This document shows, one piece after another, positions 8,071-63,905 of a stretch of 64,000 nucleotides of DNA (position 1 is its first letter; every line of letters starts with the position of its first letter). The position numbers and the translations under genes were made by a program. The stretch is from positions 19,780,501 through 19,844,500 of the forward strand of contig NC_135241.1 in NCBI RefSeq assembly GCF_947623445.1, in the 5' to 3' direction. Under the pieces are notes generated by a model. It was not told the origin of the DNA. It did no database searches and saw only the letters and a list, made by a program, of their open reading frames with translations. Origin of the DNA: Clavelina lepadiformis. Its lineage: Eukaryota; Chordata; Ascidiacea; Aplousobranchia; Clavelinidae.

Positions 8071-8074
8071 AATC

Positions 8075-9882: not shown

Positions 9883-12364
9883 TCATTTCTTTTTCTCTAA
9901 TTCTTTCATTATTTTCGCTCCAGGTTCCATATAAAAATAGTCCGCCAGTTTTTGTACTAAACCAGTTGGAATTTTCTCCCAAACCCAGGCCTGTAAAAAT
10001 AGTTGGCACAAGAATCACAAACTGAACTGTGTCACATTTTTAGCATGTTGATAGATAAAGATATATAACTTAGAGGAAATGTCAGACATTTTACCTCAAC
10101 TGCGTGTTGCCAGTGACCATGAGTCCATCTTGCCTTGTCTACTGTTGCCAACCATGACGCACAATAGTCTTTAGGGCTGGTCATTTTTTCTAAATCGCCA
10201 AATTGTTGTGACAGTTTAGTCCCAACTGCACCAGGTCTGCAACTCTGTGAGAAATGACATCGATTTTAGTCCCAAACTATTCTCATCGGACTATAAAAGC
10301 ACTAGGATTGATATTTCTCTGGTAACACCCGCTGATATAGCGGACAAAACCTCCATGAGTATGTATCTGATAAATGTATCAAACTTGACAATACTATACT
10401 TTTTAACGAAAATCGACTCACAATATTGCAATTATGTACACGTAACACAAGAATTCAATCACACACAGCAAAAACCAAAACTACGACGCTTACGAAACAC
10501 ACATGTGTTGTGTCAGGCAACCCAAAACATCCCTTAATTAAAGTGATGCAAACAATAAGCAGACACTTCTGCCACCTGTTGACCAAGATTTTGCTGAATA
10601 ATATGTCTAAGCTACTTGTCTTGGTTGACATTATAAAGCAAAGTACTTTGAATATATGATTACAGTAGGACTTTCATATCGGCTTCAGCTTTCATCTTCA
10701 CAAAATCCCGCGAACGGCATGGAGAGAAAATGTATAGTACGCCTATGGCAAACGTTTTCAATATTTGGCCGACACCTGTCTGTATCATAAGCAAAACTAA
10801 CACCTTAACAAAGAAACAATTATCCTATTTACTCTAGGCTAAGATTTTTGAAGAAATAAAATATACTTGAATGGTAATGCCTTCGCTTTCATATTCATAA
10901 CTTAGTGCTTGAGAAAATAAGTTGATAAATGATTTTGTTGCATTCGTTATTGCAAATTTTCCAATTGGATGAAGAATTGTAAATGCAGATAAATTTAAAA
11001 TAAGTCCTCGTTTTCGTTCCACCATTCCAGGGAGCACAATTTGTGTCATCTGCGGAAAAATAATTAACTTTCAATTACTATGTATATCTGTCGATGTCAA
11101 CTTGACAATGAACAACTCGTTATTTATAAACGTTATTTTAACTATGCTAAAATTTAGTAAAACTCATCTTTTATGTAATACTTGGTGCGTTTGCGCTCTA
11201 TGCAATACAAGTTGCTTGTAAGTGTAAGGAATATAAATGGTATAACCAGTGATATTTTTTAGTATATATACTTTTTTTGATATATAGGATATACCATTTT
11301 GAATGACACTTTTTTAACTTTTCTCCTTTATCGAAAGCTATTATATTGTGTATAACTGTATACGGACTACTGTTAACTTCTTAATACCATTTTTAACCAA
11401 AATCGTTTTGGATTTTTCATTTTAATTCACTATATATCAATTCCCAAGGTAACCTAAACAATGCATTGCGTGTATCTTGTTATACTCACAAATATATCTT
11501 CGGTACTCACCTTTAGAATTGACATTATGTGCACTCGAACCAGATTTCTAATAATCAGTGAAAGATTGGATTGTTCAAGAAAGCGAACAAGTTCTTGGTC
11601 CGTTCCAACATTATTAACTAGCGTCCCAATATCGAGACCTTGCAAGAAATCAGCTATTTTGTTGTATATTTCCTCGTCGCCACTAAAATCTATCGCCAGA
11701 CACTTGGTTTGGACATTGTGTTCGCTCTCTTTAAAAAAGTATTCAAAATGACTTCCGATATTCTTAGCATTAGCGTGCGTTCAGATTTTAGTACATACTC
11801 AACTGCAAAAGTGTCAACAATTTGTAACAATAATAAAATAATGATTAATTGAGTAACTACTAAGTATAGTTTACCAATTTTTTTTGCCACGTTTTTCAGC
11901 CGTTCCCTATTCCTGCTAATCAGTGCAATGTTTTGACCACGTGAAGCAAGCTGTGTTTAACGAGATTATTTAATCCTGCTTTACAAATTATTTGAAAACG
12001 TTTGATGACGATGCATTTTCAATTATATCGTGCTTTAACGCAACATGTTACCTGAAATGCGGTCTCTTTTCCAATGCCATCTGTAGCTCCCGTAATCACT
12101 GTGAATATAAACGTATAACAATAACGCATGAATGCTTCCCATATCAACTAATTTATCTAGAAGATAAGGCAAATCAATTGATAATTATTTATAAACACTG
12201 TCAATAAAGATCAATTAAAGCTATTGCTTACCTGACCATTTTCCATATTTATTAAAATCCGGGTAAGTTCTGAAAAAATATAAGTAAGCGCCTTGTGCCA
12301 GGTAGTATACAAGCTTAATGGCCAAGTATGTTGTAGTTGCAATGCCAATCCATTGAAAAACCAT
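9883..12364 (-). CDS. B1: HSD17B12-like SDR lacking catalytic Ser and Tyr
   Basis: Seven exons: 12232-12364, 12052-12098, 11875-11950, 11511-11728, 10867-11049, 10095-10244 and 9883-9990. They join with matching phases and GT-AG sites into 304 codons plus TGA. Residues 1-40 carry a hydrophobic membrane anchor (TYLAIKLVYYLAQGAYLYFF). TGATDGIG at 47-54 binds the dinucleotide. LISR after the second beta strand suggests NADP(H). NNVG is at 124-127. Relatives reduce 3-oxoacyl-CoA or 17-keto steroids at the ER. Here three of the four catalytic positions have changed: Asn to His (152), Ser to Ala (180) and Tyr to Thr (193); Lys197 stays. The C-terminus is EKKK. The frame is intact, so a non-catalytic role is inferred. 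HSDL1, an inactive relative, is a precedent. Confidence 0.85.
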
Positions 12365-15588: not shown

Positions 15589-15801
15589 TGTTACCGGCCT
15601 CTTACTAGTGCTGGTTCGAAGAGACCTGCAGTTAACTATAAGACTGTATTTCAAAACGGTAAAAACTAGGCACGTCTGCACAGCAGTACTGGTCTCGGTA
15701 GAATGTCATCATCACTGTTTGTAGCAACGGACAAGGCGCAGCCAAATCGACAAGCGCTTCCGGAATGACAAATGACAAATCAAGCGTAAAACAACGTAAC
15801 A
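15589..15801 (-). repeat. 3' LTR of the Gypsy element
   Basis: The LTR is 213 bp with TG...CA ends (TGTTACC at left, CGTAACA at right on the plus strand). It is a near-copy of 20,600-20,827. It is bordered inside by a GGGGGGG-rich polypurine tract on the minus strand (about 15,802-15,813), as expected next to a 3' LTR. Confidence 0.9.
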
Positions 15802-17814
15802 CTCCCCCCCTTCAATAAATTTCGCTCTGGCATTGTTTGAACATCAATCAGCATAACAAGCTATAGGCTAACTATATGGTAAATACAACGACAAACTTCA
15901 ATATAATCATGAAGCAACCGCCATTACTTTTGTTTCCCAGATGAATTTGTGAATTTTGAAGGAAACTTTTTCGACTACTAATGCTATAGTGGGCCACATA
16001 AAAAAGGTTTACAAAAACGATTCTTTAAACACAGCAAAATGGTGCACTAGTGACAGAAATTATGATTATCACATCAATCAAAAATAAACGAATATTAAGG
16101 TACAGCATTTCTATGCAAATAATGTAAACACAAACATTACACTACCCAAAATTTAAAATGACTTATTAAAAAAGAAGTTTAATCATATGATGACTATACC
16201 AACACAATAGCACAAACACAATAAAAAGTATCGGTGGGCTATAAATCACGCTTCATGCTAATATCACCACAAAAGGTATAAAAACGTGAGATTGATAGCT
16301 GCTGTAAAATAGGACGTATATAAACAGGTCCGACATAATATACCATCATACTTGATATTGTGGTATATAAAACGAAAATCATAGGAAAGTAGTCAACAAG
16401 ATAAAACTAAGCATCACACAAATAAACAATTAATACGTTTCGACGTCTGTGTAACGAGTAGGCTCTGGCGAAATCGACCGTTATTTCGGGAGTTACTAAA
16501 GTTATTAAAATTGTTACTCTCGTGACGATTTGCATTTGATCGGTTATTAAAAAAGTAAGCTTCAGTCAAGGGCATGTCCAATTGTTGGGGGACATCTTCT
16601 TGGAGACTAGCTTGATTATAGAAAGAGATCCCTGTATGATGATCTCTTCTGCTTAGCTTTAGCCTATTAAAATGCACTCTTAACATCCGTTGGTGATTGC
16701 GAATGAGATAATTTACAGGCGGCAAAGCCACAACAACTTTGTAGAGACCTGAATACGAGAGGTGAAAATTTCGCTTTTCATCTTTTGATATGACAGTTTT
16801 TTTGCGACATGATCTTGTCTCCTACTTAAAACTACGATTTTCTCGATACCGACTTGTCGTAACGTGCTTTCATGGATTTCCGACGTTGGTTGAGTCTTGT
16901 TTGTACGACTTCGTGGACAAGCCGCATACAATCTTGTAAATCGAACATTGCCGACGATGATTTGATGACTTGAAGACTGTCCAGTCATCAAGTCTGCTGA
17001 TAACTTCAATTCTCGTCCTGTCAGAAGGAAATGTGGAGAAACACCTGTCTCTTCCTGTCGACTGGCGTTATAGGTCGCACAAATTGAGGAGACGGATTTA
17101 TCCCAGGACAGTGGCTCGCGCAGGACATAATTCTGCATGATGGAAAGGATTGTTCTGTTGGCCCTTTCAACCGCTCCGTTCCCAGAAGGATGGTATGCTT
17201 TGGTTCTTGATTTCTTGCAGCCGAGAAGATCAATAAGCTCTTTAAACAACTGGCTCTCAAAGTTTCCTCCTCGGCCGCTCTGAATACGCTCCGGAACACT
17301 ATGAATGGTCATTCAGTTATGATAGAGAACAAATGCCGTTTCTTGGGCTGTCTGTGATGGGTCGATGTGTCAATGTGTTTTCCAGACAGCGGTGCAAGCA
17401 CTGGTGTATTAAAAAAAACTTTCCAAACAAAGACCAGTAATGTCGACCGTCACTGCTCAATTTCTTAATTTTCTTAAAAGGGGGTCTTGTGCCGGCTCTA
17501 ATCCAACCTAGTACTATGCAAAGATGTTCGTCGGACTTTTGAGCTTGTGAAATTTGATAAGGAGTCCAACCAAAAACCTCACGAAGATCAATACTTAAAA
17601 CACTTTCTGTCGAGTTCTTACTGGCTTTAAAGTTTTCTTCAACTGCAAACGGATACTTGTCAAGATTCAATTCGACACTACTAGAATCATTTCTTTTTCT
17701 GCTCTGTGGCCTTCTAAGTGCGTCTGCATTGGAGTGCTTTGATCCAGAGTGATGTATTAGCTTAAAATCAAAATCAGCCAATATTTCAAACCAGCGCGCA
17801 CATTGAACGTGTGA

Positions 17815-18290
17815 TAATATTATAAGTTTATAACTAATGTAACATTTACAATTCTCATCTTTGAATATCGAATCAGCGAAGCATAACACTGCGTGACGTA
17901 ATCGATTACTTCCTGCTTAATGTGCGTGCAGTGTGAGTTATTCATTCTTCTTTTCTTGCTATTACGATGAACGCCGCAACATGTACGTCTTTATGCCATA
18001 GTTGCTGTACCAATGTTTTATCTAAATGTATTCGTTCAAAGAAGCTTCAATATAATCAGTTTATGCAGTTATCATTCTTGTGTAACAATTGTGAATTCAA
18101 TTTGAAGAAGTTCAGCTTCACAAGACAATAATTCGTTAAGGTGAACAATTAATTCTAAGATTGAGAAAAGCAGACAACGACCTTCGAAGACTCATAACAT
18201 CGAGCGCAATAAACAATTCAACTGACAAACATTGTAGTGAAGTGGTCAACCTTACAGGTTAAGGTAAAATAAACAACCATTTCATTACAA
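17815..18290. mobile_element. Unidentified insertion within the Gypsy element
   Basis: About 480 bases with no similarity to retroelement coding sequence separate the RNase H and integrase regions. I find no clear terminal repeats or target duplication, so the boundaries are approximate and the origin is unknown. Confidence 0.5.
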
Positions 18291-20827: not shown

Positions 20828-20831
20828 ATAG

Positions 20832-25233: not shown

Positions 25234-27966
25234 TCAATTAAGCTTTTTCTTCTCAAGTTCCATTGCACGATTCATGCGAGCTTCACCTATTGTTTGAGTT
25301 AAATCAGTTGAAAGCTGGCTCCATATCCAGCCCTATATACATGCAATAGATTCTGTTAATTAGAGTAACATCCTAAAAGAAACCTTAGCGCGTTCAGTAA
25401 ACTTCACTAAAACTTAACAAATGAAACAAAACTTGCGTCAATTGCGTGTTTCCAGTATCCATGAGTCCATCTTGCTTTGCCTATTGTTGCCAACCACGAC
25501 TTGCAGTATGTTTCAGGTGAGGGCATTTTTTGGAATTCCCCATACTTTTTTGTTATGTTAGTCAGAACTGTTCCTGGCATGCAACTCTGCAGAAATAAAG
25601 TTTTAATTTTCAATCCATTGCATTGGTTTTGCTTTCAACAGTATTTCGGTAAAATAAAGTGCTAAAACGCAAGTAAAAATAATCTTACGAGTGATGAAAT
25701 GCTTTGACTGTTTTACAAAGTAAACACTTTGCTCCGGTAATATTTACCTGAATAGTAATTCCTTTGCTTTCATATTCGTAACTCAGTGCTTGGGCAAAGT
25801 AGTCAACAAATGTTTTCGTTGCCGAGTACATGGCGTAGTTTTTTACTGGTTTAACAGCCGCAAATGAAGACAGGTTTAAAACGAGTCCACGTTTTCGTTT
25901 AACCATTCCAGGAAGCACAACTTGCGTCATCTATGAAATAATTAGAAATGACAGAAAGTGTAAAGCGTTGTCAAAAATATATTCTAAATGTCTGTTGCTG
26001 TTATGTGGACATTCTTGATTACAATCATGATTGAAGACAAAACGATGTTTGAAAATATAAAAATGATGACGTTTGTCGTGTATTTTGAGTTAGTATAGCA
26101 ATGCGCAGTTTGTCATTTGTTATTGATGATTGAAAACAACATATAGTGTATTGATTTCTGCTTGAAAAAAATCATAGTTCCGAATTGTATGAATTTCTAT
26201 TGGTGATTTGTAAACAGCGTGTTTGATTCTTGTGCAGCAGAACGGGGGCAAACATTTATTACCTACAATACATTTCGAATAAAGTTCATATGACGCACAC
26301 AGTCCACAAAGCGTATATAGTCTAGTAAACTCTAGTTACTGCATTTAGGCAACGTATAGATTAGCGCACATAGTCAACGTATGGCACGTAACGCACTTGG
26401 CACACAAACATTCACGCAGAACACGTAATCCATGGGCATATTTTAGACGTACAAGACCATATCCGTAAATTTTTATCTCAAAAATTTGTATCCTATGTCG
26501 CAAAAACGCGCATCATCAAAGCTGTGAAACCTATAGCGCATAGGAAGCGTCGGTCACCGCTACAGCGGTTTTCTAAGACGCTCATATGATGCCGGGCCAA
26601 CTCGTTCTGAATCGGTGGGTCACAATCTCCTACAAGGCCTTATGCACACAAAAGCCACGTCACTTGCGCGACTGCCGATAATCAGAAACTGAGCTTTGGG
26701 CATCCTGATTGTACAATCTGCGCTAATACTTCCAAAACTAAAGGGAACTATTGTTCTATTAAAAGGCCGTAGATTGCCGACTATTGCTATTGCGGAGCAA
26801 GTACAATCGTGCATATAATACTCGGGCTGGTAACATTTGGCCGAGTAATAGCTGCTGGCGGCTAAGATTTCTTAGCGACTAAGGATTTTGTTAGCCATGA
26901 GCCGCAAACTTACATGTAGAAGAAGATATGGAGCAAAATTTTTGGTAATCCATTGACTAATGAAAATTTGCTGCTTTGTTAATTAATTCAATGCCTAAAT
27001 GCTATGTCTTCCTGGTAAATTTTGTGGGTTAGCTTGGTAGAAAGTGCTTATACAACACTTTCCATAGCGTTCCTAAAGAATAAATAGAATATTGCCTGCA
27101 ATTAACAATGTGAATTGACGATTAGCGGCTATGGCAACTAACCTGCAGCTAACAGCTAATGCCATTCGGCTAACAGCTAAATTCCCAACCCTAGATAGTC
27201 ACCTTTATAACTGATATTACGTTGAGGCGTATTATATCTCTAAGAAACTTTGAAAGATTTGGGTGTTCATGAAAGCAAGAAATTTCCTGAGCAATTCCAA
27301 CATTATTAACCAGTGTTCCAACATCAAGACCTTGCAAGAAATCAGCTATTTTGTTGTATATTTCCTCGTCATCACTAAAATCTATCGTCAGACACTTGGT
27401 TTGGACGTTGTGTTTGCTCTCTGCAAATACATATGTTTTAGTTTAAAACCATGAAAGCTTTGTCAAGAGTAGAGTATTTAAGTGTTAGTGCACTTCTGTA
27501 GAGTTTTTTTGAAATAAGCTATACTAGCATAAGGTATACTCACCGATTTCATTTGCCACATTTCTCAATTTTTCTTCACTTCGGCTTATTAAGACTATGT
27601 TTTGACCACGTGAAGCCAGCTGCAGTAGTACATATTACAATTTACATGGCTAACATAAACTGCTGTCGTTTATCCTGTTTCTTACAAAACGGTTCCTACC
27701 TGAATAGCAGTTTCTTTTCCTATGCCATCGGTCGACCCGGTTACAACTGGAAAATAGAAAATAGAAATACTATTTGTGTTATTGCGCTTTTAGTATGGTC
27801 ACATAAACCAGATATTTTTTATACCTGACCACTTGCCATATTTGCTGAAGTTCGGATAAGTCGAGAAGATGTACAAACGACTGCCTTCTATTACCTTCAG
27901 TACAATCTTGACGATGAAATACAGGGAGGTAAAAATACCAATATACTGAAAAACTGAACAATCCAT
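25234..27966 (-). CDS. A2: intact HSD17B12-like ER short-chain reductase
   Basis: Seven exons: 27825-27966, 27700-27746, 27544-27619, 27203-27420, 25748-25930, 25437-25586 and 25234-25332. They give 304 codons plus stop with phases identical to the B genes. The N-terminus is hydrophobic (IFTSLYFIVKIVL), fitting an ER anchor. TGSTDGIG (50-57) and LISR bind NADP(H). NNVG is at 127-130. The catalytic tetrad is complete: Asn155, Ser183, Tyr196 and Lys200 (YSATK). The end, KKLN, fits a KKxx ER-retrieval signal. HSD17B12 relatives reduce very-long-chain 3-oxoacyl-CoA or keto steroids; the exact substrate here is unknown. The last intron needs a GC donor (GAC|GCAAGT). This is the only A copy without a break, so it is the best candidate for the functional enzyme of the array. 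Confidence 0.88.
26280..27195. repeat. Motif-array elements inside A2 intron 4
   Basis: This is the counterpart of 4,925-5,888. It holds degenerate units on CACGTAACGCACTTGGCACAC and CACGTAATCCATG near 26,290-26,440, then the AGCGGCTAA-type array near 26,840-26,900 and 27,120-27,190. It makes intron 4 about 1.27 kb long. Confidence 0.5.
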
Positions 27967-31231: not shown

Positions 31232-31342
31232 GTAGGCCTATAGCAATAATCAAGACGATACAGGTTACAACGTTATATGTACTGTACATTGAACAAATGT
31301 TTCAATTTTAACTGGTTGCTTGTTTGCAGAAACGCATTCGCT

Positions 31343-34300
31343 TCATTTCTTTTTCTCTAATTCTTTCATTATTTTCGCTCCAGGTTCAAAATAAAAATAG
31401 TCTGACAGTTTTTGTACTAAAGCAGTTGGAATTTTTTCCCACACCCAGGCCTGTAAAAATGGTTGACACAAGAATCACAAACTGAACTGTATCACATTTG
31501 TAGCGTGTTGTTAGATAAAGATATATGGTTTGGTGACACTTACTCACGCGACACTTAATCACGAGACACATAGTCACTTGGACATTTAATCACGCGACAC
31601 ATAATCACTTGGACAGTTAATCAAGGGACATTTAATCACACATTTACAGTATCGAAAATTGCAAGTCTACACATGGGAAATGTGAGCAACTGCACGAAGA
31701 TAAACTAAAATTTCACTTGACAGATAACGGTCAACTGTGTTTTGCACGCGCAGTTTCAGTGCCTTGTAGCGCTTTGGAATATAAGGTTGAGTAGCCCCGG
31801 CTCAGCCATCTTTCCAATCGAAAGTTGGAATCGAAGCTGTGGCAGGTTGCAAGGAATGGCTGGTACTCAACCTTCTATTCCAAAGCGGTACAAGGCACTG
31901 AAACTGCGCATGCAAAATACAGTTGACAGTTATCTGTCAAGTGAAATTTTAGTTTATCTTCATGCAGTTGCTGACATTGCCCATGTGTGGTTAAATGTCG
32001 CGTGATTAACTGTCCAAGTGATTATGTGTCGGTGATTAAGTGTCGCGTGATTATGTGTCTGTACACCAGATATATAACTTAGAGGAAAAGTCAGACATTT
32101 TACCTCAACTGCGTGTTGCCAGTGACCATGAGTCCATCTTGCCTTATCTACTGTTGCCAACCATGACGTACAATAGTCTTTAGGGCTGGTCATTTTTTCT
32201 AAATCGCCAAATTGTTGTGACAGTTTAGTCCCAACTGCACCAGGTCTGCAACTCTGTGAGAAATGACGTCAATTTTAATCCCAAACTATTCTCGTCGGAC
32301 TATAAAGCACTAGGATTGATATTTCTCTGGTAACACCCGTTGATATAGAGCAGCGTGGTCCAACTTCTTTTCATCGCGGGCCAAAATCAGAAATTTTTTT
32401 TATCTTGCGGGCCAATGTTTTTAAATTAGAACTGAAAAAAGTTCTCTTTTTTAATTAAAACTGAAATTAGAATAGTTCAAAATTTAGCTATTAAATGCTG
32501 ATCAATGTGACATCTGCGGTCGAGGTTCTTCGTCGACAATAGCGTTGGTATCCACGGGAATCGCAGTTGTGGCCATGCGAAGGCAAGCCTGAAGAGCCTC
32601 GTTTCCAAGTTGATTTCGATTTTTTGTTTTAATATTGTTCATTGCTGAAAACGTACATTCACAAATGTATGTACCTACTTCCAAACATAGAGTACAGCTT
32701 CATAGCATCATCTTTTGAAAGGGGAAACCTCCCTTTGAGACAAACTTGCGGCCCGCGGGCCTGTAGTTGGACCACGCTGGGCTAGGACAACAAGGCGTGT
32801 AACTAAAACCTAAGAGAACTTTTTGGACAAAGTGGTATTGTTACGCATTACAAAGAATCATTCACAAAGTTTTTGTCAATAACAATATTATTACACAATA
32901 ACAAAGAAACAAAAATTGAAGTTATGTTGCCAGATTGAATCAAAGCTTACTATCAGTTCACGGGCCAAAAATCGGTGCTCGCGGGCCAACTTTGGCCCGC
33001 GTGCCTGCAGTTGGACCACGCTGATATAGAGGACAAAACCTCCATGAGTATGTATCTGATAAATGTATCAAACCTGGCACTACTATATCGTTTTACGAAA
33101 ATCGACTCACAATATTGCAATTATGTGCACGTAACACAAAAAGTCAATCACACACAGCAAAATCCAAAACTACGACGCTCACGAAACACATGTGTTGCGT
33201 CAGGCAACCGAAAACATCCCTTAATAAAAGCGATGCAAACAATAAGCAGATATTTCTGCTACCTGTTGACCAAGGTTTTGCTGAATAATATGTATAAGCT
33301 ACTTGTCTTGGTTGACATTATAAAGCAAAATACTTTGAATAATTGATTACAGTAGGACTTTCATATCGGCTTCAACCTTCATCTTTACAAAATCCCGCGA
33401 ACGACATGGAGAGAAATTGTATAGTACGCCTATGACAAACGTTTTCAATATTTGTCTGTATTTGTCAATATTTGCCGACACCTGTCTCTATCATAACTTT
33501 TCATAAGCAAAACTAACACCTTAAAAAAGAAACAATTATCCTATTTACTCTATAGGTTATGAATTGTGAAGAAATAAAATATACTTGAATAGTAATGCCT
33601 TCGCTTTCATATTCATAACTTAGTGCTTGAGAAAATAGGTTGATAAATGATTTTGTTGCATTCGTTATTGCAAATTTTCCGATTGGATGAAGAATTGTAA
33701 ATGCAGACAAATTTAAAATAAGTCCTCGTTTTCGTTCCACCATTCCAGGGAGCACAATTTGTGTCATCTGCGGAAAAATAATTAACTTTCAATTACTATG
33801 TATATCTGTCGATGTCAACTTGACAATGAAAAACTCGTCATTTATGAACGTTATTTTAATTATGTTAAAATTTAATAAAACTCATCTTTTATGTAATGAT
33901 TGGTGCGTTTGCGCTCCATGCAATACAAGTTGTTTGCAAGTATAAGGAATATAAATGGTATAAGCAATGATATTTTTTAGTATTTATCCTTCTTTGATAT
34001 ATAGGATATATCATTTTGAATGACACTTTTATCACATTTCTCCTTTATCACATTTCTCCTTTATCTAAAACTCTTATATTGTGTGTAACTGTATACAGCC
34101 TAATCTAAACTTCTTAATACCATTTTTAACCAAAATTGTTTTGGATTTTTCATTTTAATTCACTATATATCAATTCCCAAGGTAACCTAAAACAATGTAT
34201 TGTGTATATCTTGTTATGTTCAGAAATATATCTCCTGTACTCACCTTTAGAATTGACATTATGTGCACTCGAACCAGATTTCTAATAATCAGTGAAAGAT

Positions 34301-35088
34301 TGGATTGTTCAAGAAAGCGAACAAGTTCTTGGTCCGTTCCAACATTATTAACAAGCGTCCCAATATCGAGACCTTGCAAGAAATCAGCTATTTTTTCGTA
34401 TATTTCCTCATCATCACTAAAATCTATCGTCAGACACTTGGTTTGAACGTTGTGTTTGTTCTCTTTAAAAAAGGTATTTAAGATGACTTCCGATATGATT
34501 GGCATTAGCGTGCGTTCAGATTTTCTCAACTGTGAAAGTGTCAACAATTTGTAACAATAAAAAATAATGATTAATTGAGTAACAACTAAGTATAATTACC
34601 AATTTCTTTTGCCACGTTTTTCAGCCGTTCCGTATTCCTGCTAATCAGTGCAATGTTTTGTCCACGTGAAGCAAGCTGAGTTCAACAAGAGTATTTACTC
34701 CTGCTTTACAAATTATTTGAAAATGTTTGATGAAAATACACTTTCAATTGTATCCTAGTTTAACGCAACATGTTACCTGAAATGCGGTCTCTTTTCCAAT
34801 GCCATCTGTAGCTCCCGTAATCACTGTGAAGATAAACGTATAACAAATATGCATGAATGCTTTCCATATCAACTAATTTATCAAGAAGATAGGAAAATTA
34901 ATTGATAATTATTTATAAACACTGTCAATAAAGATCAAGTAAAGCTATTGCTTACCTGACCATTTTCCATATTTATTAAAATCTGGGTAAGTTCTGAAAA
35001 AATATAAGTAAGCGCCTTGCACCAGGTAGTATACAAGCTTAATGACCAAGTATGTTGTAGTTGCAATTCCAATCCATTGAAAAACCAT
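31343..35088 (-). CDS. B2: HSD17B12-like SDR lacking catalytic Ser and Tyr
   Basis: Seven exons: 34956-35088, 34777-34823, 34600-34675, 34245-34462, 33585-33767, 32104-32253 and 31343-31450. Together they give 304 codons plus stop. The motifs match B1: TGATDGIG, NNVG, then His at the catalytic Asn position (RVHIMS), Ala for Ser (LNLSAF), Thr for Tyr (ITNATK), with Lys kept. Exon 7 reads AWVWEKIPTALVQKLSDYFY and ends EKKK. The introns are enlarged by two recent insertions: a 541-bp fold-back element in intron 6 and a 673-bp hAT element in intron 5. Both lie clear of splice sites, so the gene may still be spliced. The same doubt about catalysis applies as for B1. Confidence 0.85.
31527..32067. 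mobile_element. Fold-back element with ~15-bp terminal motif arrays, in B2 intron 6
   Basis: AGATATAT flanks both ends (31519-31526 and 32068-32075), and units 1 and 5 have one copy at the empty site (AAAGATATATAACTT). The left end is an array of ~15-16-base units such as GACACTTAATCACGC, GACACATAATCACTTG and GACATTTAATCAC. The right end carries the same words inverted. Inside, a long imperfect inverted repeat pairs about 31,695-31,790 with about 31,870-31,965 (CAGTTTCAGTGCCTTGTA against TACAAGGCACTGAAACTG). No coding sequence is seen. Confidence 0.85.
32351..33023 (-). mobile_element. hAT element (673 bp) in B2 intron 5, with transposase C-terminal scrap
   Basis: The ends are CAGCGTGGTCCAACTTC and GTTGGACCACGCTG. 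ATATAGAG flanks both sides (32343-32350 and 33024-33031), and B1, B3 and B4 show one uninterrupted GATATAG-type site. A second, internal right end (GTTGGACCACGCTG, ending 32,779) suggests a tandem or composite structure. On the minus strand 32,502-32,684 encodes ECTFSAMNNIKTKNRNQLG and LRMATTAIPVD, matching the hATC C-terminal region of GTF2IRD2-like transposases. The rest of the transposase is absent. Confidence 0.85.
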
Positions 35089-42254: not shown

Positions 42255-44832
42255 TTACCTCATATTCATCTCATTAAACTTTGCCTTCTCTATTTCCATT
42301 GCACGATCCATGCGAGCTTCAAGTATGGTTTGAGTTAAATCAGTTGAAAGCTGGCTCCATATCCAGCCCTATACATGCAATGGATTGTGTTAGTTAGAGT
42401 AACATCCTAAAGGAAACCTTAGCACATTCAGAAAACTTCACTAATAGTTAACAAATAAAACAAAACTTGCGTCAATTGCATGTTTCCAATATCCATGGGT
42501 CCATCTTGCTTTGCCTATTGTTGCCAACCACGACTTGCAGTATGTTTCAGGTGAGGGCATTTTTTGCAATTCCTCATAATTTTTTGTTATGTTAGTCAGA
42601 ACTGTTCCTGGCATGCAGCTCTACAGAAATAACGTTTTAATTCTCAATCCGTTGCATTGGTTTTGCTTTCAACATTCTATCCGTAAAATAAAGTGCTAAA
42701 ACGCAAGTAAAAGTAATCTCAGGAGTGATGACATGTTTTGACCGTTACTGACCGAGTACTTGGCGTAGTTTTTACTGGTTTAACAGCCGCAAATGAAGAC
42801 AGGTTTAAAACGAGTCCACGTTTTCGTTTAACCATTCCAGGAAGCACAACTTGCGTTATCTACGAAATAATAAAATATGACAGAAAATGTTGAGCATTAT
42901 CTAAGATTTATTCCAAATGTCAGTTGCTGTTATGTGGACATTCTTGATTACAATCATGATTGAACGAAAAAACGATGTTTGGAGATATGAAAGTGGTGAC
43001 GTTGGTAGTGTATTTTAAGCTAGTATTTGTTATTGATGATTGAGAACAATATATAGTGTATTTGTTTCTGCTTGAAAAATAAGTCATAATTTTGAATTAT
43101 ATGATTTTGTTTTGGTGATTTATAAACAGCGTGTTTAATTCTTGTGCGGCAAATCGGGGTCAAAACATTTATCACCTACAAAACAGTTCACAAAAAATTC
43201 ATCTGACGCACACAGTCCACAAAGTGTACATAGACTAGTTAATGCATTTATGCTACTTATAGATTAGCACACATAGTCCAAGTATGGCACATATCGCACT
43301 TGGCGCACATAATTCACGCAGACCACGTAATCCATGTGCATATTTTAAATGTACGCGCCAATATCCTTAAAATTTGAACGCACATCATCAAAGCTGTGAA
43401 ACCTATAGCGCATAGGAAGTGGCGGTCACCGCTACAGCGGTTTTCTAAGGCGATCATATGATGCCGAGCCAACTGGTTCTGAATCGGTGGGTCACAATCT
43501 CCTACAGCGCCTTATGCACACAAATTGAGCCACTTATGCGACTGCCAATAATGAGAAACTGAGCTTTAGGCATCCTGATTGTACAATCTGTGGTAATACT
43601 TCCAAAACCGAAGTGCACTATTGTTCAATTTAAAGGCCGTAGATTGCCGACTATTGCTATTGTGGAGCAAATACAATAGTGCATATATTACTCGGGCTGG
43701 TAAAATTTGGCCGAGTAATAGCTACTGGCAGCTAAGAGCTTTTAGCAACTAAGGATTTTGTTAGCCTTTTGCCGAATACGTAAATGTAGAAGAAGATATG
43801 TAGCAAAATGTTTGGTAATCCATTTACTAATGAAAGTTTGCTACTTTGTTAATTAATTCAATGCTTAATTGCTATGTCTTCCTGATAAACTTTGTGGGTT
43901 AGCTTGGCAGAAAGTGCTTAGGCTATACAACACTTTCCATAGCGTTCCTAAAGAATAAATAGAATATTGCCTGCAATTAACAATGTGAATTGACGATTAG
44001 CGGCTATGGCAACTAACCTGCAGGTAACAGGTATTGACATCCGGCTAACGGCTAAATTCCCAACCTTTATAACTGATATTACGCTGAGGCGTATTATATC
44101 TCTAAAAAACTTTGAAAGATTTGGGTGTTCATGAAAGCAAGAAATTTCATGAGCAATTCCAACATTATTAGCCAGTGTTCCAATATCGAGACCTTGCAAG
44201 AAATCAGCTATTTTGTTGTATATTTCCTCGTCATCACTAAAATCTATCGTCAGACACTTGGTTTGGACGTTGTGTTTGCTCTCTGCAAATAGATACGTGT
44301 CAATTTAAAACCATCAAAACTTTGTCAAGAGTAGAGTATTTAAGTGTTAGTGCACTTCTGTAGAGTTTTGAAATAAGCTATACTAGCAAAAGGTATACTC
44401 ACCGATTTCATTCGCCACATTTCTCAATTTTTCTTCATTTCGGCTTATTAAGACTATGTTTTGACCACGTGAAACCAGCTGTAACTTAATAGTACAAATT
44501 ACAATTTACTTGGCTACCATAAACTGCTGTAGTTTATCCTGTTTCTTACAAAACAATTCCTACCTGAATGGAAGTTTTTTCCCTATGCCATCGGTCGACC
44601 CGGTTACAACTGGAAAATAGAAATTAGAAATACTATTTGTGTCATTGCGCTTTTTGTCTTATAGTCACATAAACCAGATATTTTTTATACCTGACCACTT
44701 GCCATATTTGCTGAAATCCGGATAAGTCGAGAAGATATACAAACGACTGCCTTCTATTATATCCAGTGCAATCTTGACGATGAAATACAAAGAAGTAAAA
44801 ATGCCAATATATTGAAAAACTGAACAATCCAT
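42255..44832 (-). pseudogene. A3: broken HSD17B12-like SDR gene
   Basis: Exon remains: 44691-44832, 44564-44609, 44403-44478, 44065-44282, about 42746-42859, 42471-42620 and 42255-42368. Exon 2 is 46 bases instead of 47, shifting the frame just after TGSTDGIGK. Exon 5 has lost about 130 bases, removing its 3' half, the splice donor and the Lys-side helix after the active site. It also has a one-base deletion near the Tyr codon, and its first codon is ATA. Exon 4 is open, but the catalytic Asn is Ser (RLSVIS). Exon 7 has drifted to a longer tail ending EMNMR instead of KKLN. Exon 6 is followed by the same GC donor as A1 and A2. This is a pseudogene. Confidence 0.85.
43195..44060. repeat. Motif-array elements inside A3 intron 4
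   Basis: This is the counterpart of 4,925-5,888 and 26,280-27,195, somewhat shortened. A TAGGCTA micro-insertion at 43,919-43,925 interrupts the otherwise shared GTGCTTATACAACAC. Confidence 0.5.
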
Positions 44833-47971: not shown

Positions 47972-50783
47972 TCATTTCTTTTTCTCTAATTCTTTCATTA
48001 TTTTCGCTCCAGGTTCCATATAAAAATAGTCTGACAGTTTTTGTACTAAAGCAGTTGGAATTTTTTCCCACACCCAGGCCTGTAAAAATGGTTGACACAA
48101 GAATCACAAACTGAACAGTATCATATTTTTAGCGTGTTGTTAGATAACGATATATAACTTACAGGAAACGTTTGAAATTTTACCTCAACTGCGTGTTGCC
48201 AGTGACCATGAGTCCATCTTGCCTTGTCTACTGTTGCCAACCATGACGCACAATAGTCTTTAGGGCTGGTCATTTTTTCTAAATCGCCAAATTGTTGTGA
48301 CAGTTTAGTCCCAACTGCACCAGGTCTGCAACTCTGTGAGAAATGACATCGATTTTAATCCCAAACTATTATGGTCAGACTATAAAGCACTAGGATTGAT
48401 ATTTCTCTGGTAACACCCGCTGATATAGAGGACAAAACCTCCACGAGTATGTATCTGATAAATGTATCAAACTGGAAATTACTGTACTGTTTTACGAAAG
48501 TCGACTCACAATATTGCAATTATGTGCACGTAACACAAGAATTCAATCACACACAGCAAAAACAAAAACTACGACGCTCACGAAACACACATGTGTTGTG
48601 TCAGGCAACCGAAAACATCCCTTAATAAAAGCGATGCAAACAATAAGCAGACACTTCTGCCACCTGCTGACCAAGATTTTGCTGAATAATATGTATAAGC
48701 TACTTGTCTTGGTTGACATTATAAAGCAAAATACTTTGAATAATTGATTAGAGTAGGACTTTCATATCGGCTTCAGCCTTCATCTTTACAAAATCCCGCG
48801 AACGACATGGAGAGAAAATGTATAGTACGCCTATGGCAAACGTTTTCAATATTTGGCCGACACCTGTCTGTATCATAAGCAAAACTAACACCTTAACAAG
48901 GAAACAATTATACCATTTACTCCAGGTTAAAAATAAAACATACTTGAATGGTAATGCCTTCGCTTTCATATTCATAACTTAGTGCTCGAGAAAATAAGTC
49001 GACAAATGATTTTGTTGCATTCGTTATTGCAAATTTTCCGACTGGTTGAAGAATTGTAAATGCAGACAAATTTAAAATAAGTCCTCGTTTTCGTTCCACC
49101 ATTCCAGGGAGCACAATTTGTGTCATCTGCGGAAAAATAATTAACTTTCAATTACTATGTATATCTGTCGATGTCAACTTGACAATGAAAAACTCGCTAT
49201 TTACGAACGTTATTTTAATTATGTTAAAATTTACTAAAACTCATCTTTTATGTAATGATTGGTGCGTTTGCAATCTATGCAATACAAGTTGCTTGTAAGT
49301 ATAAGGAATATAAATGGTATAACCAGTGATATTTTTTAGTATATATCCTTTATTTGATATAACGATATATCATTTTAAATGACAGTTTTATCACATTTCT
49401 CCTAAGTTATCTAAAACTCTTATATTGTGTATAACTGTATATAATCCAAACCTCCTAGTACCATTTTTAACAAAAATGGTTTTAGATTTTTCATTTTTTA
49501 TTCACTATAGTGTATATCAATTCCCAAGATAAACTAAAGTTTCTAAATTAAGTTAAATTTTTATGTTTGTTTAATTAAACTAAAATTACGGGAATTATAG
49601 ATGAATAATAATTTTTGCATTGCTACCCCAGATATAATGTAGGATTATTAGTTATTACTGTATACATTACAGCAAAAGCATTACTGACCATCTCTACAAC
49701 AAAACTACGCACTAACGAATTTATAAATTTTGGAAACTTTCATTCCCGACACCGACTTTCACATTATCTGACTTTCCATGTCCAGGATAACCAGGATACA
49801 GCTTCCAAACACAATGTAACATGGTGCGTGATTTTCACGCGGCAGTACATTTGCAAAGAGTTTTGCGGCTTGAACAGTGTATTGTGTATATCTTGTTATG
49901 TTCACAAACATATATCTGCTGTACTCACCTTCAGAGTTGGCATTATGTTCACTCGAACCAGATTTCTAATAATCAGTGAAAGATTGGATTGTTCAAGAAA
50001 TCGAACAAGTTTTTGGTCCGTTCCAACATTATTAACAAGCGTCCCAATATCGAGACCTTGCAAGAAATCAGCTATTTTGTCGTATATTTCCTCGTCCCCA
50101 CTAAAATCTATCGCCAGACACTTGGTTTGGACGTTGTGTTTGCTCTCTTTAAAAAAGATATTTTAGATGACTTCCGATATTCTTAGCATTAGCGTGCGTT
50201 CAGATTTTAGTACATACTCAGCTGCAAAAGTGTCAACAATTTGTAACAATAATAAAATAATGATTAATTGAGTAACAACTAAGTATAATTTACCAATTTC
50301 TTTTGCCACGTTTTTCAGTCGTTCCGTATTCCTGCTAATCAGTGCAATGTTTTGTCCACGTGAAGCAAGCTGTGTTTAACGAGATTTATTTACTCTTGCT
50401 TTACAAATTATTTAAAAATGTTTGATGAAAATACATTTTCAATCATATCGTGTTTTAACGCAACATGTTACCTGAAATGCGGTCTCTTTTCCAATGCCAT
50501 CTGTAACCCCCGTAATCACTGTGAAGATAAATGCATTACAATAACGCTTGAATGCTTCCCATGTCACGTATAACAATAACGCATGAGGTAAATTAATTGA
50601 TAATTATTTATAAACACTGTCAATAAAGATCAAGTAAAGCTATTGCTTACCTGACCATTTTCCATATTTATTAAAATCCGGGTAAGTTCTGAAAAAATAT
50701 AAGTAAGCGCCTTGCGCCAGGTAGTATACAAGCTTAATGACCAAGTATGTTGTAGTTGCAATTCCAATCCATTGAAAAACCAT
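47972..50783 (-). CDS. B3: HSD17B12-like SDR lacking catalytic Ser and Tyr
   Basis: Seven exons: 50651-50783, 50472-50518, 50294-50369, 49929-50146, 48944-49126, 48184-48333 and 47972-48079. They give 304 codons plus stop. The cofactor motif is TGVTDGIG, and NNVG is present. The catalytic Asn is kept (RVNIMPTLK), but Ser is Ala (LNLSAFTILQP) and Tyr is Thr (ITNATK); Lys is kept. Exon 4 contains GTDQKLVRF where other copies have GTDQELVRF. Intron 4 holds the ~300-bp tract shared only by B3, B4 and B5. As with B1, open frames and good splice sites sit alongside a dead active site. Confidence 0.85.
49545..49880. repeat. Tract in intron 4 shared by B3, B4 and B5 only
   Basis: The segment (TTTCTAAATTAAGTTAAATT to GTGCGTGATTTTCACGCGGC) is also at 55,566-56,650 (interrupted) and 63,130-63,410, but is absent from B1 and B2, where TAACCTAAA joins directly to CAATG. 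It contains a GCGTGATTTTCACGC palindrome. It groups units 3-5 against units 1-2. Confidence 0.6.
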
Positions 50784-54033: not shown

Positions 54034-57000
54034 TCATTTCTTTTTCTCTATATCTTGCAGCGCTTTCTCGCCAGGTTCAAAATAAAAAAATTCTGACAGT
54101 TTTTGTACTAAAGCAGTTGGAATTTTCTCCCACACCCAGGCCTGTAAAAATGGTGGACACAACAATCACAAACTGAACTGTATCATATTTTTTAGCGTGT
54201 TGTTAGAAAAAGAAATATAAATTAGAGGAAATGTCATAAATTTTACCTCAACTGCGTGTTGCCAGTGACCATGAGTCCATCTTGCCTTGTCTACTGTTGC
54301 CAACCATGACGTACAATAGTCTTTAGGGCTGGTCATTTTTTCTAAATCGCCAAATTGTTGTGACGATTTAGTCCCAACTGCACCAGGTCTGCAGCTCTGG
54401 GAGAAAAGACATCGATTTTAGTTCCAAATTATTCTCGTCGTACTATAAAAGATCTAGGATTGATATTTCTCTGGTAACACCCGCTGATGTAGAAGACAAA
54501 ACCTCCACGAGCAAGTATCTGATAAATCTATCGAACTTGACAATACTATATCGATTTTACGAAAATCGACTCACAATACTGCAATTATGTACACGTAACA
54601 CAATAATTCAATCACCCACAGCAAAAACCAAAACTACGTCGGTGATTAAAAGTGATGCAAACAATAAGCAGACACTTCTGCCACCTGTTGACCAAGATTT
54701 TGCTGAATAATATATATAGGTTACTTGTCTTGGTTGACATTATAAAGCAAAATACTTTGAATAATTGATTACAGTAGGACTTTCATATCGGCTTTAGTTG
54801 TCAGCTTTACTAAATCCAGCAAACGGCATTGAGAGAAAATGTATAGTACGCCTATGGCAAACGTTTTCAATATTTGGCCGACACCTGTCTGTATCATAAG
54901 CAAAACTAACACCTTAACAAGGAAACAACTATCCTATTTACTCTAAGCTAAGAATTTTGAAGAAATAAAATATACTTGAATGGTAATGCCTTCGCTTTCA
55001 TATTCATAACTTAGTGCTCGAGAAAATAGGTCGACAAATGATTTTGTTGCATTCATTATTGCATATTTTCCTATTGGATGAAGAATTGGAAATGCAGACA
55101 AATTCAAAATGAGTCCTCGTTTTTGTTCCACCATTCCCGGGAGCACAATTTGTGTCATCTGCGGAAAAATAATTAACTTTCAATTGCTATGTATATCTGT
55201 CGATGTCAACTTGACAATAAAAAACTCGTTATTTATGAACATTATTTTAACTATTCTAAAATTTAATAAAACATATCTTTTATGCAGTGATTGGTGCGTT
55301 TGCAATCTATGCAATACAAGTTGCTTGCAAGTATAAGGAATATAAATGGTATAACCAGTGATATTTTTTAGGATACATACTCTTTTGATATATAGGATAT
55401 ACCATTTTGAATGACACTTTAATCACATTTCTCCTTTATCTAAAACGTTTACATTGTGTATAACTGTATATAACCCAAAGTTCTTAATACCATGCATTTT
55501 TAACCAAAATCGTTTTGGATTTTTCATCTTTATTCACTATATATCAATTCCCAAAGTATCCTAAAGTTTCTAAATTAAATTAAAATTTTATGTTTATTTA
55601 ATTAAACCAAAAAAACGAGAATTATAGATAAATAGTAATTTTTGCATTGCTACCTCCGATGTAAAGTAGTATTATTACTGTATACATTACGGCAAAAGCA
55701 CTACTGACGATACTTACTACAAAACGTACACACTACGCAATCTATAAATTTTGGAAAGTTTCACACCGACTTTCACATTACCTGACTTTCCATGTCCAGG
55801 ATAACTACAGTACACAGCTTATCCGCCTACCAAAGAGTGTTGCGTGCGTTTCTACCTAACTCTGTAAACTACAAACCTAGGGAGTGGCAAGCACTGCAGT
55901 ATGGGAATATGACTCGGAGGTGGGGCGTGGTGCTACATACCGCAGAACTCAATTTCGTAGCTGTTTGTCGGGACCATTAAGTTATGCCTCATTAGAATGG
56001 ACGAAGATTGGCGTTTTATTTTTATCTTGCTTTAGAGTGTAATATGCTAAATTTTAAGCCTTAGTTAGGATTGCGTTGAAGAGAGGAATAAAAAGGTTTT
56101 GTAATCTTTTCCCCCAGAAACTGCTTATAAACACCTCGCGATTAATTTTCATATTTAGACGTAGCCTACGGGAAATTTCATAAAGGTACTTTTCTCTATA
56201 CGTCGTATACAACAACTTTGCAACGCCCTTTTACTCGCTTATCGTGAGATTTGCAGTGATCAATCAAGTCTTCCGATGAAATAGAACAAGTTAGCAACGT
56301 TACATTTAATGCTTGATTGAGTGGTGGACCCGTTTTGACTCAGGGCCCAATTTCAAAAAATCGGTGAAATCGGTCAAAAAACCTCCTTGGAAGAGCAAAC
56401 CCGCAGACGATGTTATTATGTTCAATCTACAATTCAAGACATACAAGTTTTGTATGACACGTCCATATATCCTTGGACTCTATTGTTGGACTGTTGCCCG
56501 GTTTTTAGTCCTGGCAGGAAAGCACCATCACGCTCACACGAAAAAGATTACGGTACTTATCATAGCTATATTTTTACGCGTCCCAGTCGAAACACAATCT
56601 TACATGGTGCGTGATTTTCACGCGGCAGTACATTTGCAAAGAGTTTTGTGGCTTGAACAATGCATTGTGTGTATGTTGTTATGTTCACAAATATATATCT
56701 GCTGCACCCACCTTTAGAATTGACATTATGTTCAGTCGAACCAGATTTCTAATAATCAGTGAAAGATTGGATTGTTCAAGAAAGCGAGCAATTTCTTGGT
56801 CCGTTCCTACATTATTAACGAGCGTCCCAATATCGAGACCTTGCAAGAAATCAGCAATTTTGTCGTATATTTCCTCATCATCACTAAAATCTATCGTCAG
56901 ACACTTGGTTTGGACGTTGTGTTTGCTCTCTTTAAAAAAGGTATTTAAGATGACTTCCGATATGCTTAGCATTAGCGTGCGTTCAGATTTTAGTACATAC

Positions 57001-57565
57001 TCAGCTGCAAAAGTGTCAACAATTTAATAATAAATAAAGTAATGATTAATTGAGTAAAGACTAAGTGTAGTTTACCAATTTCTTTTGCCACGTTTTTCAG
57101 CCGTTCCGTATTCCTGCTAATCAGTGCAATGTTTTGACCACGTGATGCAAGCTGTGTTTAACGAGATTATTTACTCCTGCTTTACAAATTATTTGAAAAC
57201 GTTTGATGACGATGCGTTTTCAATTATATCGTGCTTTAACGCAACATGTTACCTGAAATGCGGTCTCTTTTCCAATGCCATCTGTAGCTCCCGTAATCAC
57301 TGCAGAGATAAACATATAACAATAACGCACGAATGCTTCCCATATCAACTAATTTATCAAGAAGATACGGAAAATCAATTGATTAGTATTTATAAACACT
57401 GTCAATAAAGATCGAATAAAGGTATTGCTTACCTGACCATTTTCCATATTTATTAAAATCCGGGTAAGTTCTGAAAAAATATAAGTAAGCGCCTTGTGCC
57501 AGGTAGTATACGAGCTTAATGGCCAAGTATGTTGTAGTTGCAATGCCAATCCATTGAAAAACCAT
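54034..57565 (-). CDS. B4: HSD17B12-like SDR lacking catalytic Ser and Tyr
   Basis: Seven exons: 57433-57565, 57253-57299, 57076-57151, 56712-56929, 54976-55158, 54247-54396 and 54034-54141. They give 304 codons plus stop. TGATDGIG and NNVG are kept, and the catalytic Asn is present (RLNIMS). Ser is Ala (LNLSAFPILHP) and Tyr is Met (AIMNATK); Lys is kept. The C-terminal exon has diverged more (EPGEKALQDIEKKK). Intron 4 is 1.55 kb because of an extra insertion (about 55,821-56,585). The substitution at the Tyr position differs from the Thr of B1-B3, so the site is drifting freely or under new constraints. Confidence 0.85.
55821..56585. other. Unit-4-specific insertion (~765 bp) in B4 intron 4
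   Basis: B3 and B5 read CAGCTTCCAAACACAAT here. B4 has about 765 extra bases between CAGCTT and AAACACAATC. Moderate frames exist (55,792-55,980; 56,313-56,717; 56,387-56,614, all plus), but they overlap each other or cross the insertion edge, and I recognise none. No terminal repeats are seen. Confidence 0.45.
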
Positions 57566-60956: not shown

Positions 60957-63905
60957 TCACTTGTTTTTCTCTAAATCTTGCATCGCTTTCGCTCCAGGTT
61001 CAATATAAAAATAGTCTGCCAGTTTTTGTATTAAGGCAGTTGGAATTTTGTGCCACACCCAGGCCTGTAAAAATGGTTGACACAAAAATCACAAACTGAA
61101 CTGTATCACATTTTTAGCGTGTTGTTAGATAAAGATATATAACTTAAAGGAAATGTTAGAAATTTTACCTCAACTGCGTGTTGCCAGTGACCATGAGTCC
61201 ATCTTGCCTTGTCTACTGTTGCCAACCATGATGTGCAATAGTCTTTAGTGCTGATCATTTTTTCTAAATCGCCGTATGGTTGTGCCGTTTTAGTCGCAAC
61301 TGCACCAGGTCTGCAACTCTGTGAGAAATGACATCGATTTTAGTCCCAGACAAGGATCGATTCGTCAGTTTATAAATGGACTAGGATTGATATTTCTCTG
61401 GTAACATCTGCTGATATAAAGGACAAAACTTTCACGAGTATGTATCTGATAAATGTATCAAACTTAACAATATTATATCTTTTTTACGAAAACCGACTCA
61501 CAATATTGCAATTATGGACACGTAACACAAGAATTCAATCACACACAGCAAAAACCAAAACTACGACGCTCACGAAACACACATGTGTTGGGTCAGGCAA
61601 CACAAAGCATCCCTTAATAAAAGTGATGTAAATGTTACACTTGTTTTTGCCCTGTATCTATTGCGTTTCTCCCTTGCGGCCGATTGCGCTTTTTCGTGGT
61701 TAATTAAGCACATGTGTCTTTTATCGTCTTGTGTCCGACAGGTAGTTGCAAGGGCAGTTTTATATTGGAGCTCCTGAAATGAGCTTGGTCAATGGAACTT
61801 GACTAAACTGTTTTTAAATAAAAGATGTGCCTGTAAATGTGTAAATCTAAGAGTGAGGACAACAAAACATAACGCAAACAATAAGCAGACACTTCTGCCA
61901 CCTGTTGACCAAGATTTTGCTGAATAATATGTATAGGCCACTTGTCTTGGTTGACATTATAAAGCGAAATACTTTGATTAAATGATTACATTAGGACCTT
62001 CTTATCAGCTTCAGATTTACTAAATCCCGCGAACGGGATGGAGAGAAAATGTATAGTACGTCTATGGCACACATTTTCAATGTTTGGCCGACACCTGTCT
62101 GTTTCATAAGCAAAATTAACACCTTAACAAAGAAACAATTATCCTATATAAAATAACTTCAACAAAGATGGTGACAAATTTCGACAGTGGAGATAAAAAG
62201 ATGAAAAAATAATTTGGTGCACTAACAAATGATAAAACCAAAGGACAAAAAGAAAATGGTAACAATATTGGTTTATTCATAATCTGAAAATATTTCTAGC
62301 TGGTTAAAGCATTTACTTTTTTAGATTTGATAATACATGACGTAGCCTAATTGGAGGTTTTGGCTGTTACCAGTAAGAGTTTCTATCGGAATTGTTCTAT
62401 CCTCATATGCTTTAACAGCGTTTGGTTTTTTGCTTAAAATAAACTGAATTTTGATGTCGATTACTCCAACACAGGTAACATATCAACAAAAAAATAACTG
62501 AAAAATTATTTTCTAAATTGTCCTTTGTTACACTCTAAGCTAAGAATTTTGGGGAAATAAAACATACTTGAATGGTAATGCCTTCGCTTTCATATTCATA
62601 ACTTAGTGCTCGAGAAAATAAGTCGACAAATGATTTTATTGGAGTGGTTGATGCAAGTTTCCTTATTGGAAAAGGAATTGGCATTCCAGACAAATTTAAA
62701 ATAAGTCCTCGTTTTCGTTTCACCATTCCAGGGAGAACAATTTGTGTCATCTGTGGAAAAATATTTAATTTTCAATTACTATGTATATCTGTCGATGTCA
62801 ACTTGACAATAAACAACTCGTTATTTATGAACGTTATTTTAACTATGCTAAAGTTTAATAAAACTCATCTTTTATGTAATGATTGGTGCGTTTGCAATCT
62901 ATGCAATACAAGTTGCTTGTAAGTATAAGGAATATAAATGGTATAACCAGTGATTTTTTTACCATACTAATACAATTTTGAATGACACTTTTATCACATT
63001 TCTCCTTTGTCTAGAGCTGTTATATTGTGTATATAACTCTATATAATCCAAACTCTCTATTACCATTTTAACAAATATCGTATTGGATTTTTCTTTTTTA
63101 TTCACTAAATATCAATCCCCACGCTAACTTAAAGTTTCTAAATTATCTAAAAATGTGGGAATTCTCTATGAGTAGTAATTTTTGCATTACTACCCCCGAT
63201 GTAAAGTAGGATTATTATTGTATGCTTTACGGAAAACACATTGTTGACGAGCCCCACTACCAAACTACACAATTCCCAAATTTTGGAAAGTTTTATTCCC
63301 GACTCTGACTTTCCATGTCCAGGATGACCAGGGTACAGCTTCCAAACACAATCTTACACGATGCGTGATTTTCACGCAGCAGCACATTTGCAAAGAGTTT
63401 TGTGGCTTAAACAATGTATTGTGTATATCTTGTTATGTTCACAAATATATATCTGCTGCACCCACCTTTAGAATTGACAAAGCGTCCACTCGAACCAGAT
63501 TTCTAATAGTCAGTGAAAGATTGGATTGTTCAAGAAAACGAACAAGTTCTTGGTCCGTTCCTACATTATTAACGAGCGTCCCAATATCGAGACCTTGCAA
63601 GAAATCAGCTATTTTGTCGTATATTTCCTCGTCGTCACTAAAATCTATCGTCAGACACTTGGTTTGGACATTGTGTTTGCTCTCTTTAAAAAAGGTATTT
63701 AAGATGACTTCCGATATGCTTAGCATTAGCGTGCGTTCAGATTTTAGTGCATACTCAGCTGCGAAAGTGTCAACAATTTCTAAAAATAATAAATAATGAT
63801 TAATTGAGTAACAACTAAATATAATTTACCAATTTCTTTTGCCACGTTTTTCAGTCGTTCCGTATTCCTGCTAATCAGTGCAATATTTTGACCACGTGAA
63901 GCAAG
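60957..63905 (-). CDS. B5: HSD17B12-like SDR lacking catalytic Ser and Tyr (partial, runs off window)
   Basis: Exons 3-7 are in view: 63830-63905, 63466-63683, 62568-62750, 61169-61318 and 60957-61064. Exons 1-2 should lie beyond 64,000. All visible exons are open with normal lengths. This is the most diverged active site of the five: Asn to Asp (RVDALS), Ser to Gly (LNLSGMPIP) and Tyr to Thr (ASTTPIK), with Lys still kept. The tail is EPGAKAMQDLEKNK. Introns 5 and upstream carry two unit-specific insertions (61,631-61,872 and 62,152-62,530), both away from splice sites. Confidence 0.8.
61631..61872 (+). other. Unit-5-specific insertion (~240 bp), retrocopy-like
   Basis: Other units read AAGCGATGCAAACAATAAGC here. 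B5 intron 5 has about 240 extra bases ending in TTTTTAAATAAAAGATGTG, with an AATAAA word near the end. Base composition is higher in GC than the surroundings (TTGCGGCCGATTGCGC). It could be a SINE or a retrocopied transcript end. A target duplication is not clear. Confidence 0.4.
62152..62530. other. Unit-5-specific insertion (~380 bp) with coding-like content
   Basis: In B1 and B4 TATCCTATTTACTCTA is continuous. B5 has about 380 extra bases between TATCCTAT and CACTCTAAGC. Within it a 53-codon minus-strand frame looks protein-like and is listed separately. No terminal repeats were found. Confidence 0.5.
62321..62483 (-). pseudogene. Unrecognised coding-like fragment (53 codons)
   Basis: The minus strand reads YVTCVGVIDIKIQFILSKK, then PNAVKAYEDRTIPIETLTG and NSQNLQLGYVMYYQI with a TAA stop. 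The composition is that of a real protein C-terminus, with alternating hydrophobic residues and few low-complexity runs. It is bounded upstream by a stop, has no ATG, and occurs once in the window. I recognise no family. It may be a captured exon or the end of a mobile-element protein. Confidence 0.3.

Follow-up and report, generated by a model that had tools for sequence, protein, structure and literature searches.

Human HSD17B12 (SDR12C1, the 3-ketoacyl-CoA reductase KAR) combines an N-terminal hydrophobic segment with the motifs TGxTDGIG and NNVG, features that we read directly in the genes described below. A second SDR12C protein, HSDL1 (SDR12C3), is encoded by a single gene, has Phe at the Tyr position with Ser kept, and is reportedly, by the title of Meier 2009, an inactive but conserved enzyme. 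To our knowledge, dead SDR paralogs are described singly, as HSDL1 is, and no array of them appeared by title among the matches listed from the openly licensed PMC literature on SDR pseudoenzymes, HSDL1, Ciona HSD17B12 and gene families of Clavelina. For human KAR, the available text of one study gives N161-S189-Y202-K206 as the catalytic residues and reports that N161A, S189A and Y202A/K206A leave little activity, with S189A the lowest among the mutants tested (PMC4086937). In the same text, ELOVL6 activity in proteoliposomes rises about 3-fold with S189A KAR, and likewise with KAR in the absence of NADPH, and a direct ELOVL–KAR interaction is presumed there, not proven (PMC4086937). Excerpts from other work state that full ELOVL activity requires KAR (PMC10864336) and that HSD17B12 Y201A-K205A still regulates PD-L1 (PMC12843542). 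Invertebrate orthologues of families including SDR12C have, in the part of the source at hand, the same catalytic tetrad as their human counterparts (PMC9859523), a conservation against which the clade described here stands out.

The locus lies in the 209 Mb genome of the ascidian Clavelina lepadiformis, in a window (the whole stretch of DNA analysed, 64,000 nucleotides) at C2:19780501-19844500. Its SDR genes are on the minus strand, with seven coding exons common to all. In transcription order the array on C2 runs A6f (a fragment), B5, B4, B3, A3 (broken), B2, A2, B1, A1 (broken), A4, B6f (a fragment) and A5, followed by the more divergent G3, G2 and G1; gene counts in this inventory are lower bounds from an exon search (Table 1). 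The earlier note had counted four complete copies stripped of catalytic residues, B1 to B4, and these do have 304 codons and intact splice sites, but B5, extended past the window, is a complete 304-codon gene as well, which makes the window copies complete in five of five cases. With the unlinked B7, complete B genes number at least six, located on two chromosomes, and the clade also includes one fragment. Each of the six has 304 codons and zero stops, and the introns are bounded by GT-AG in 36 of 36 cases. For the fragment B6f, the 5.1 kb searched held no convincing trace of exons 1-3, and of exon 4 it retains just the second part.

Catalytic-type (A) copies in the array are intact in three of six cases (A2, A4 and A5) and broken or partial in the other three (A1, A3 and A6f). 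A1 has a stop in exon 1, has lost the exon 1 donor and is damaged in exon 4, and A3 has a frameshift near the end of exon 2 and an exon 5 that is cut short. The full Asn-Ser-Tyr-Lys set previously attributed to A2 was read here too. An expanded dead clade beside a catalytic paralog is a fair description, but the paralog is not one gene: A4 and A5 are intact too, and G1-G3 read Ser and Tyr in models without the last codon (no last exon turned up for G2, G3 or the relative on C3, and the G1 model ends before its stop). Further paralogs are this relative on C3, which has Ser and Tyr, another relative on C1, and, elsewhere on C2, an open frame that lacks introns and carries both residues. The intronless frame is possibly an active retrocopy, and it may be the better counterpart of HSD17B12.

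Along the array, 54 shared direct segments measure 900 bases or more. The longest pair (window 5993-10066 and 27404-31526) is 92% identical and spans an A copy into the adjoining B copy, and such long shared segments show block duplication of B-A units. The intron 6 donor is GC (GCAAG) in nine of the nine A and G copies read (A1-A5, A6f and G1-G3; A2 intron 6 at window 25436-25333) and GT in the B copies; G3 has GC at its exon 5 donor too. At the C-terminus, inspected for a di-lysine signal, the A copies finish with KKLN (a reading that takes in the last exon plus the bases downstream of it) and the B copies with EKKK or EKNK. Remnants of a Gypsy-like retrotransposon occupy window positions 16713-18742 on the minus strand, where frame 18218-18739 matches the RNase H-like domain of reverse transcriptase at 106.6 bits and frame 16713-17309 resembles an integrase weakly, with a score under the cut-off.

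Table 1. Positions of the SDR genes and related features. Positions refer to the window unless a chromosome is given.
Feature	Position	Strand	Basis
B1, complete 7-exon gene of a putative SDR pseudoenzyme, 304 codons	9883..12364	-	direct reading, exon search, splice/frame check
B1 exon 5; tetrad H-A-T-K	11049-10867	-	exon search, splice/frame check
B2, complete; tetrad H-A-T-K; exon 5 at 33767-33585	31343..35088	-	exon search, splice/frame check
B3, complete; tetrad N-A-T-K; exon 5 at 49126-48944	47972..50783	-	exon search, splice/frame check
B4, complete; tetrad N-A-M-K; exon 5 at 55158-54976	54034..57565	-	exon search, splice/frame check
B5 exons 3-7; tetrad D-G-T-K; exon 5 at 62750-62568	60957..63905	-	exon search, splice/frame check
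B5 exons 1-2, beyond the window	window-equivalent 64319-64188 + 64054-64007 (C2:19844819-19844507)	-	exon search
B6f, truncated B copy outside the window	C2:19771494-19769688		exon search, splice/frame check
B7, complete unlinked B copy; Ala/Met at Ser/Tyr	C4:19119128-19122950		exon search, splice/frame check
A2, intact catalytic paralog; N-S-Y-K; exon 5 at 25930-25748	25234..27966	-	exon search, splice/frame check
A1, broken catalytic-type copy, just outside the B1-B5 span	3943..6551	-	exon search, splice/frame check
A3, broken catalytic-type copy inside the B1-B5 span	42279..44823	-	exon search, splice/frame check
Intronless open frame, 317 codons from stop to stop, both Ser and Tyr present	C2:4641349-4642302		
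ELO-family (fatty acid elongase) exon match cluster	C9:10636683-10665546		

Catalytic Ser and Tyr are absent from all six complete B proteins. In the order B1-B5, B7, the Ser position (B1 180) reads A/A/A/A/G/A, the Tyr position (B1 193) T/T/T/M/T/M and the Asn position (B1 152) H/H/N/N/D/N, leaving three of the six without Asn; the catalytic Lys (K197) is retained in every one, as are TG[AV]TDGIG and NNVG. Direct reading and alignments thus agree with the residues and cofactor motif that the earlier note gave for B1-B5, and its observation is confirmed and was understated. The Asn-Ser-Tyr-Lys spacing in B is 28/13/4, and the two phmmer alignments of B1 displayed against solved SDRs match A180 to the catalytic Ser and T193 to the catalytic Tyr. 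Pfam adh_short matches B1 at 115.2 bits and A2 at 147.9 bits (cut-off 26.6). The label HSD17B12/HSD17B3-like, given previously, is consistent with the motif spacing of KAR. Among solved sequences, no SDR12C protein was named in the best 60 of 387 matches to B1 or the best 60 of 210 to the paralog C2b. The best 25 of 198 NCBIfam matches were bacterial SDR families, each below its own cut-off. Viral contigs searched with B1 gave pattern matches in 7 stretches and no relative by tblastn.

Eight paralogs with Ser and Tyr (A2, A4, A5, G1-G3, the C3 relative and C2b, with at least seven having a residue at the column) define 86 invariant positions, of which 73 are unchanged in all six B proteins and 13 are altered in at least one. 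Three of the four tetrad positions fall among the 13, which would exceed chance (hypergeometric p about 0.01). The B copies form one clade with support 100, within which the branching is not settled, at a dS (NG86) of 0.85-1.07 from A2, A4 and A5. Since the loss of Ser and Tyr is common to all B copies and these are monophyletic, the simplest reading is a single event that predates the B duplications. The closest relatives of B in the genome (the A, G and C3 copies) carry both residues, which makes the loss derived inside a catalytic family. Taken together, the sequences support reading the B clade as pseudoenzymes.

Selection was estimated with a codon branch model (GY94, F3x4) implemented for this analysis, whose one-ratio log-likelihood of -5603.0 comes near the -5597.3 that IQ-TREE reached on its own tree. 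The model gave dN/dS values of 0.233 for the background branches, 0.401 for the stem of B, and 0.512 and 0.356 for the B and A crowns. For the B crown a value of 1 was rejected (2dlnL 16.4), and no difference from the intact A crown was found (2dlnL 1.6). A star topology returned 0.512 (2dlnL 18.3 against 1), and a topology with B7 basal, whose fit exceeds that of the main topology by 4.3 log units, returned 0.476 (2dlnL 20.7). Pairwise NG86 values within B are 0.055-0.147 for dS and 0.23-0.70 for dN/dS, and introns diverge between B copies by 9-15% on average (introns 1-3 by 9-14%). By region, on the main topology and with seven region sets tested, so that each p stands as a single test, B crown dN/dS was 0.18 in exons 1-3 (p 6e-5), which hold the N-terminal segment, TGxTDGIG and SRN, 0.46 in exon 4 (p 0.01; exons 1-4 0.34), 0.53 in exon 5 (p 0.07), 0.66 in exon 6 (p 0.35) and 1.1 in exon 7 (p 0.8). 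A dN/dS near 1, which the earlier note would have read, with transcripts absent, as a sign of young pseudogenes, is not found for the B protein as a whole (0.51); in exons 5-7 the joint value of 0.69 (p 0.1) is not separable from neutral. B looks to be selected as a protein, mainly in its N-terminal, nucleotide-binding half.

The rival that survives best is decay, in which the B genes are young, relaxed tandem duplicates without a function of their own, held by short age and gene conversion. We consider this unlikely, though it has to be reckoned with. It would account for the near-neutral exons 5-7, and the array does contain one truncated B copy and broken A copies. Branches to the three broken A copies have a dN/dS of 0.65, near the B value and not separable from 1 (p 0.16), so the dN/dS margin between B and recently dead copies is modest. 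Nearest neighbours also differ from exon to exon; this mosaic is consistent with exchange or gene conversion between copies, which can mask decay and would help to keep the frames alike. Against decay stand the whole-protein dN/dS and the low value in exons 1-3, the loss of Ser and Tyr common to all B, and the intact B7 on another chromosome. The complete genes themselves weigh more heavily: neutral simulation along the fitted B crown, in a model that excludes indels and gene conversion, left a mean of 5.25 of six genes with a stop, and 0 of 2000 runs left none broken, whereas 0 of the six complete B genes are broken. We regard these intact frames as stronger evidence for the retention of B than dN/dS.

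On the B stem the pattern is different. There dN/dS reaches 1.01 in exon 5 (0.14 for the background, p 8e-4) and 0.93 in exons 4-5 taken together (0.18 for the background, p 1e-4), and exons 1-3 show no difference (p 0.53). Such a loss of constraint in exon 5 is as expected if catalysis was dropped; the catalytic exon would have been released at the origin of the B lineage and the nucleotide-binding half not. Fast change in exon 5 could also mark a changed enzyme, one that runs another reaction through the remaining Lys and the cofactor or through other acid/base residues, and the retained TGxTDGIG, NNVG and active-site Lys would suit it. We think this quite improbable: the Tyr position holds Thr or Met and the Asn position His, Asn or Asp within the clade, unlike a new fixed catalytic set, and human KAR mutants at Asn161, Ser189 or Tyr202 plus Lys206 keep little activity in the available account (PMC4086937).

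The slope of constraint along the protein invites a further reading, in which the N-terminal half alone matters, with B exons 1-4 spliced to downstream A exons or ending early and exons 5-7 carried as passengers. Constraint is indeed concentrated in exons 1-4 and weak in exons 5-7, A and B alike join exons 4 and 5 in phase 0, and a B copy next to an A copy is a repeated arrangement in the array. Yet dN/dS rises likewise in the catalytic A copies, from 0.16 in exons 1-3 to 0.79 in exons 5-7, and exons 5-7 of the six complete B genes are free of stops with intact splice sites, which makes this very unlikely. Scarcely credible is orthology of B to HSDL1 with no separate loss, as its title-reported inactivity might suggest, given the Ser and Tyr of B's closest relatives in the genome and the Phe and retained Ser of HSDL1 itself.

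Upstream of the B genes, 500 bases are largely alignable, by eye no better than the introns. A block lies about 150-185 bases upstream of the ATG in B1-B5 and B7 (in B1 near window 12546-12510). Within it, CTTCCTCC and AGGAAGC form an inverted pair in six of six genes, with an insert between them in B4. GTAAACA, which we take to be forkhead-like, then follows in five of six, and B5 differs.

In our judgement the chances are roughly even that B is a lineage of SDR12C-type pseudoenzymes acting as a non-catalytic, NADP(H)-binding partner protein. Because the corresponding motifs and exons are the conserved part, the B proteins would still sit at the membrane through their N-terminal segment and would still bind NADP(H), and they presumably cannot perform the hydride and proton transfer of an SDR. 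Their action would most likely be by contact, as partners of active membrane SDRs (the A copies or the HSD17B12-like gene) or, alternatively, of the fatty acid elongase complex, where they may tune the activity of that complex or compete for a position within it. The identity of the partner is the least certain step of this proposal; ELO-family genes are present in the genome, partly clustered on C9, which is not the chromosome of the array. Besides the near-neutral exons 5-7, the modest dN/dS margin, the similar B and A crowns and the exon mosaic, two further findings count against it: the seven B copies found include a truncated one, and hydrophobicity is lower in the N-terminal segment of B1 than in that of A2 (Kyte-Doolittle maximum over 19 residues in the N-terminal exon 1.35, against 1.89 in A2 and 1.89 in C2b). 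By analogy with the KAR mutant, the B proteins might be natural dead ketoacyl-CoA reductases of the S189A type, serving as NADP(H)-sensing activators or brakes of a membrane elongation complex and duplicated with A as B-A units, with dead and active subunits side by side and maybe in mixed dimers; this bolder version we hold to be rather doubtful.

Among known systems, HSCARG/NMRAL1 (NmrA-like) has an SDR fold that lacks the catalytic Tyr, but it is soluble and belongs to a different, atypical SDR subfamily; the accessible part of its literature names it an NADPH sensor with regulatory roles. HSDL1 is closer, as a retained SDR12C protein reported by title as inactive but conserved. B differs from it in being a multi-copy clade with both Ser and Tyr gone and with close family members that are catalytic. 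HSD17B12/KAR has the same tetrad spacing as B in the source text available (28/13/4; PMC4086937); unlike B, it has the full N-S-Y-K set and is an enzyme, whereas B is without Ser and Tyr and in three of six genes without Asn. By this analogy a non-enzymatic role may be suggested for B, perhaps in fat metabolism. The role of a catalysis-free SDR becomes testable in a chordate with a chromosome-level genome and deposited RNA-seq (run ERR10908613, according to the portion of the genome note at hand; PMC10884593). The laboratory mutant S189A makes the same Ser-to-Ala change that five of the six complete B genes carry, and a dead clade of several copies, apparently maintained by selection next to its catalytic sisters, amounts to a natural replicate of the KAR S189A experiment.
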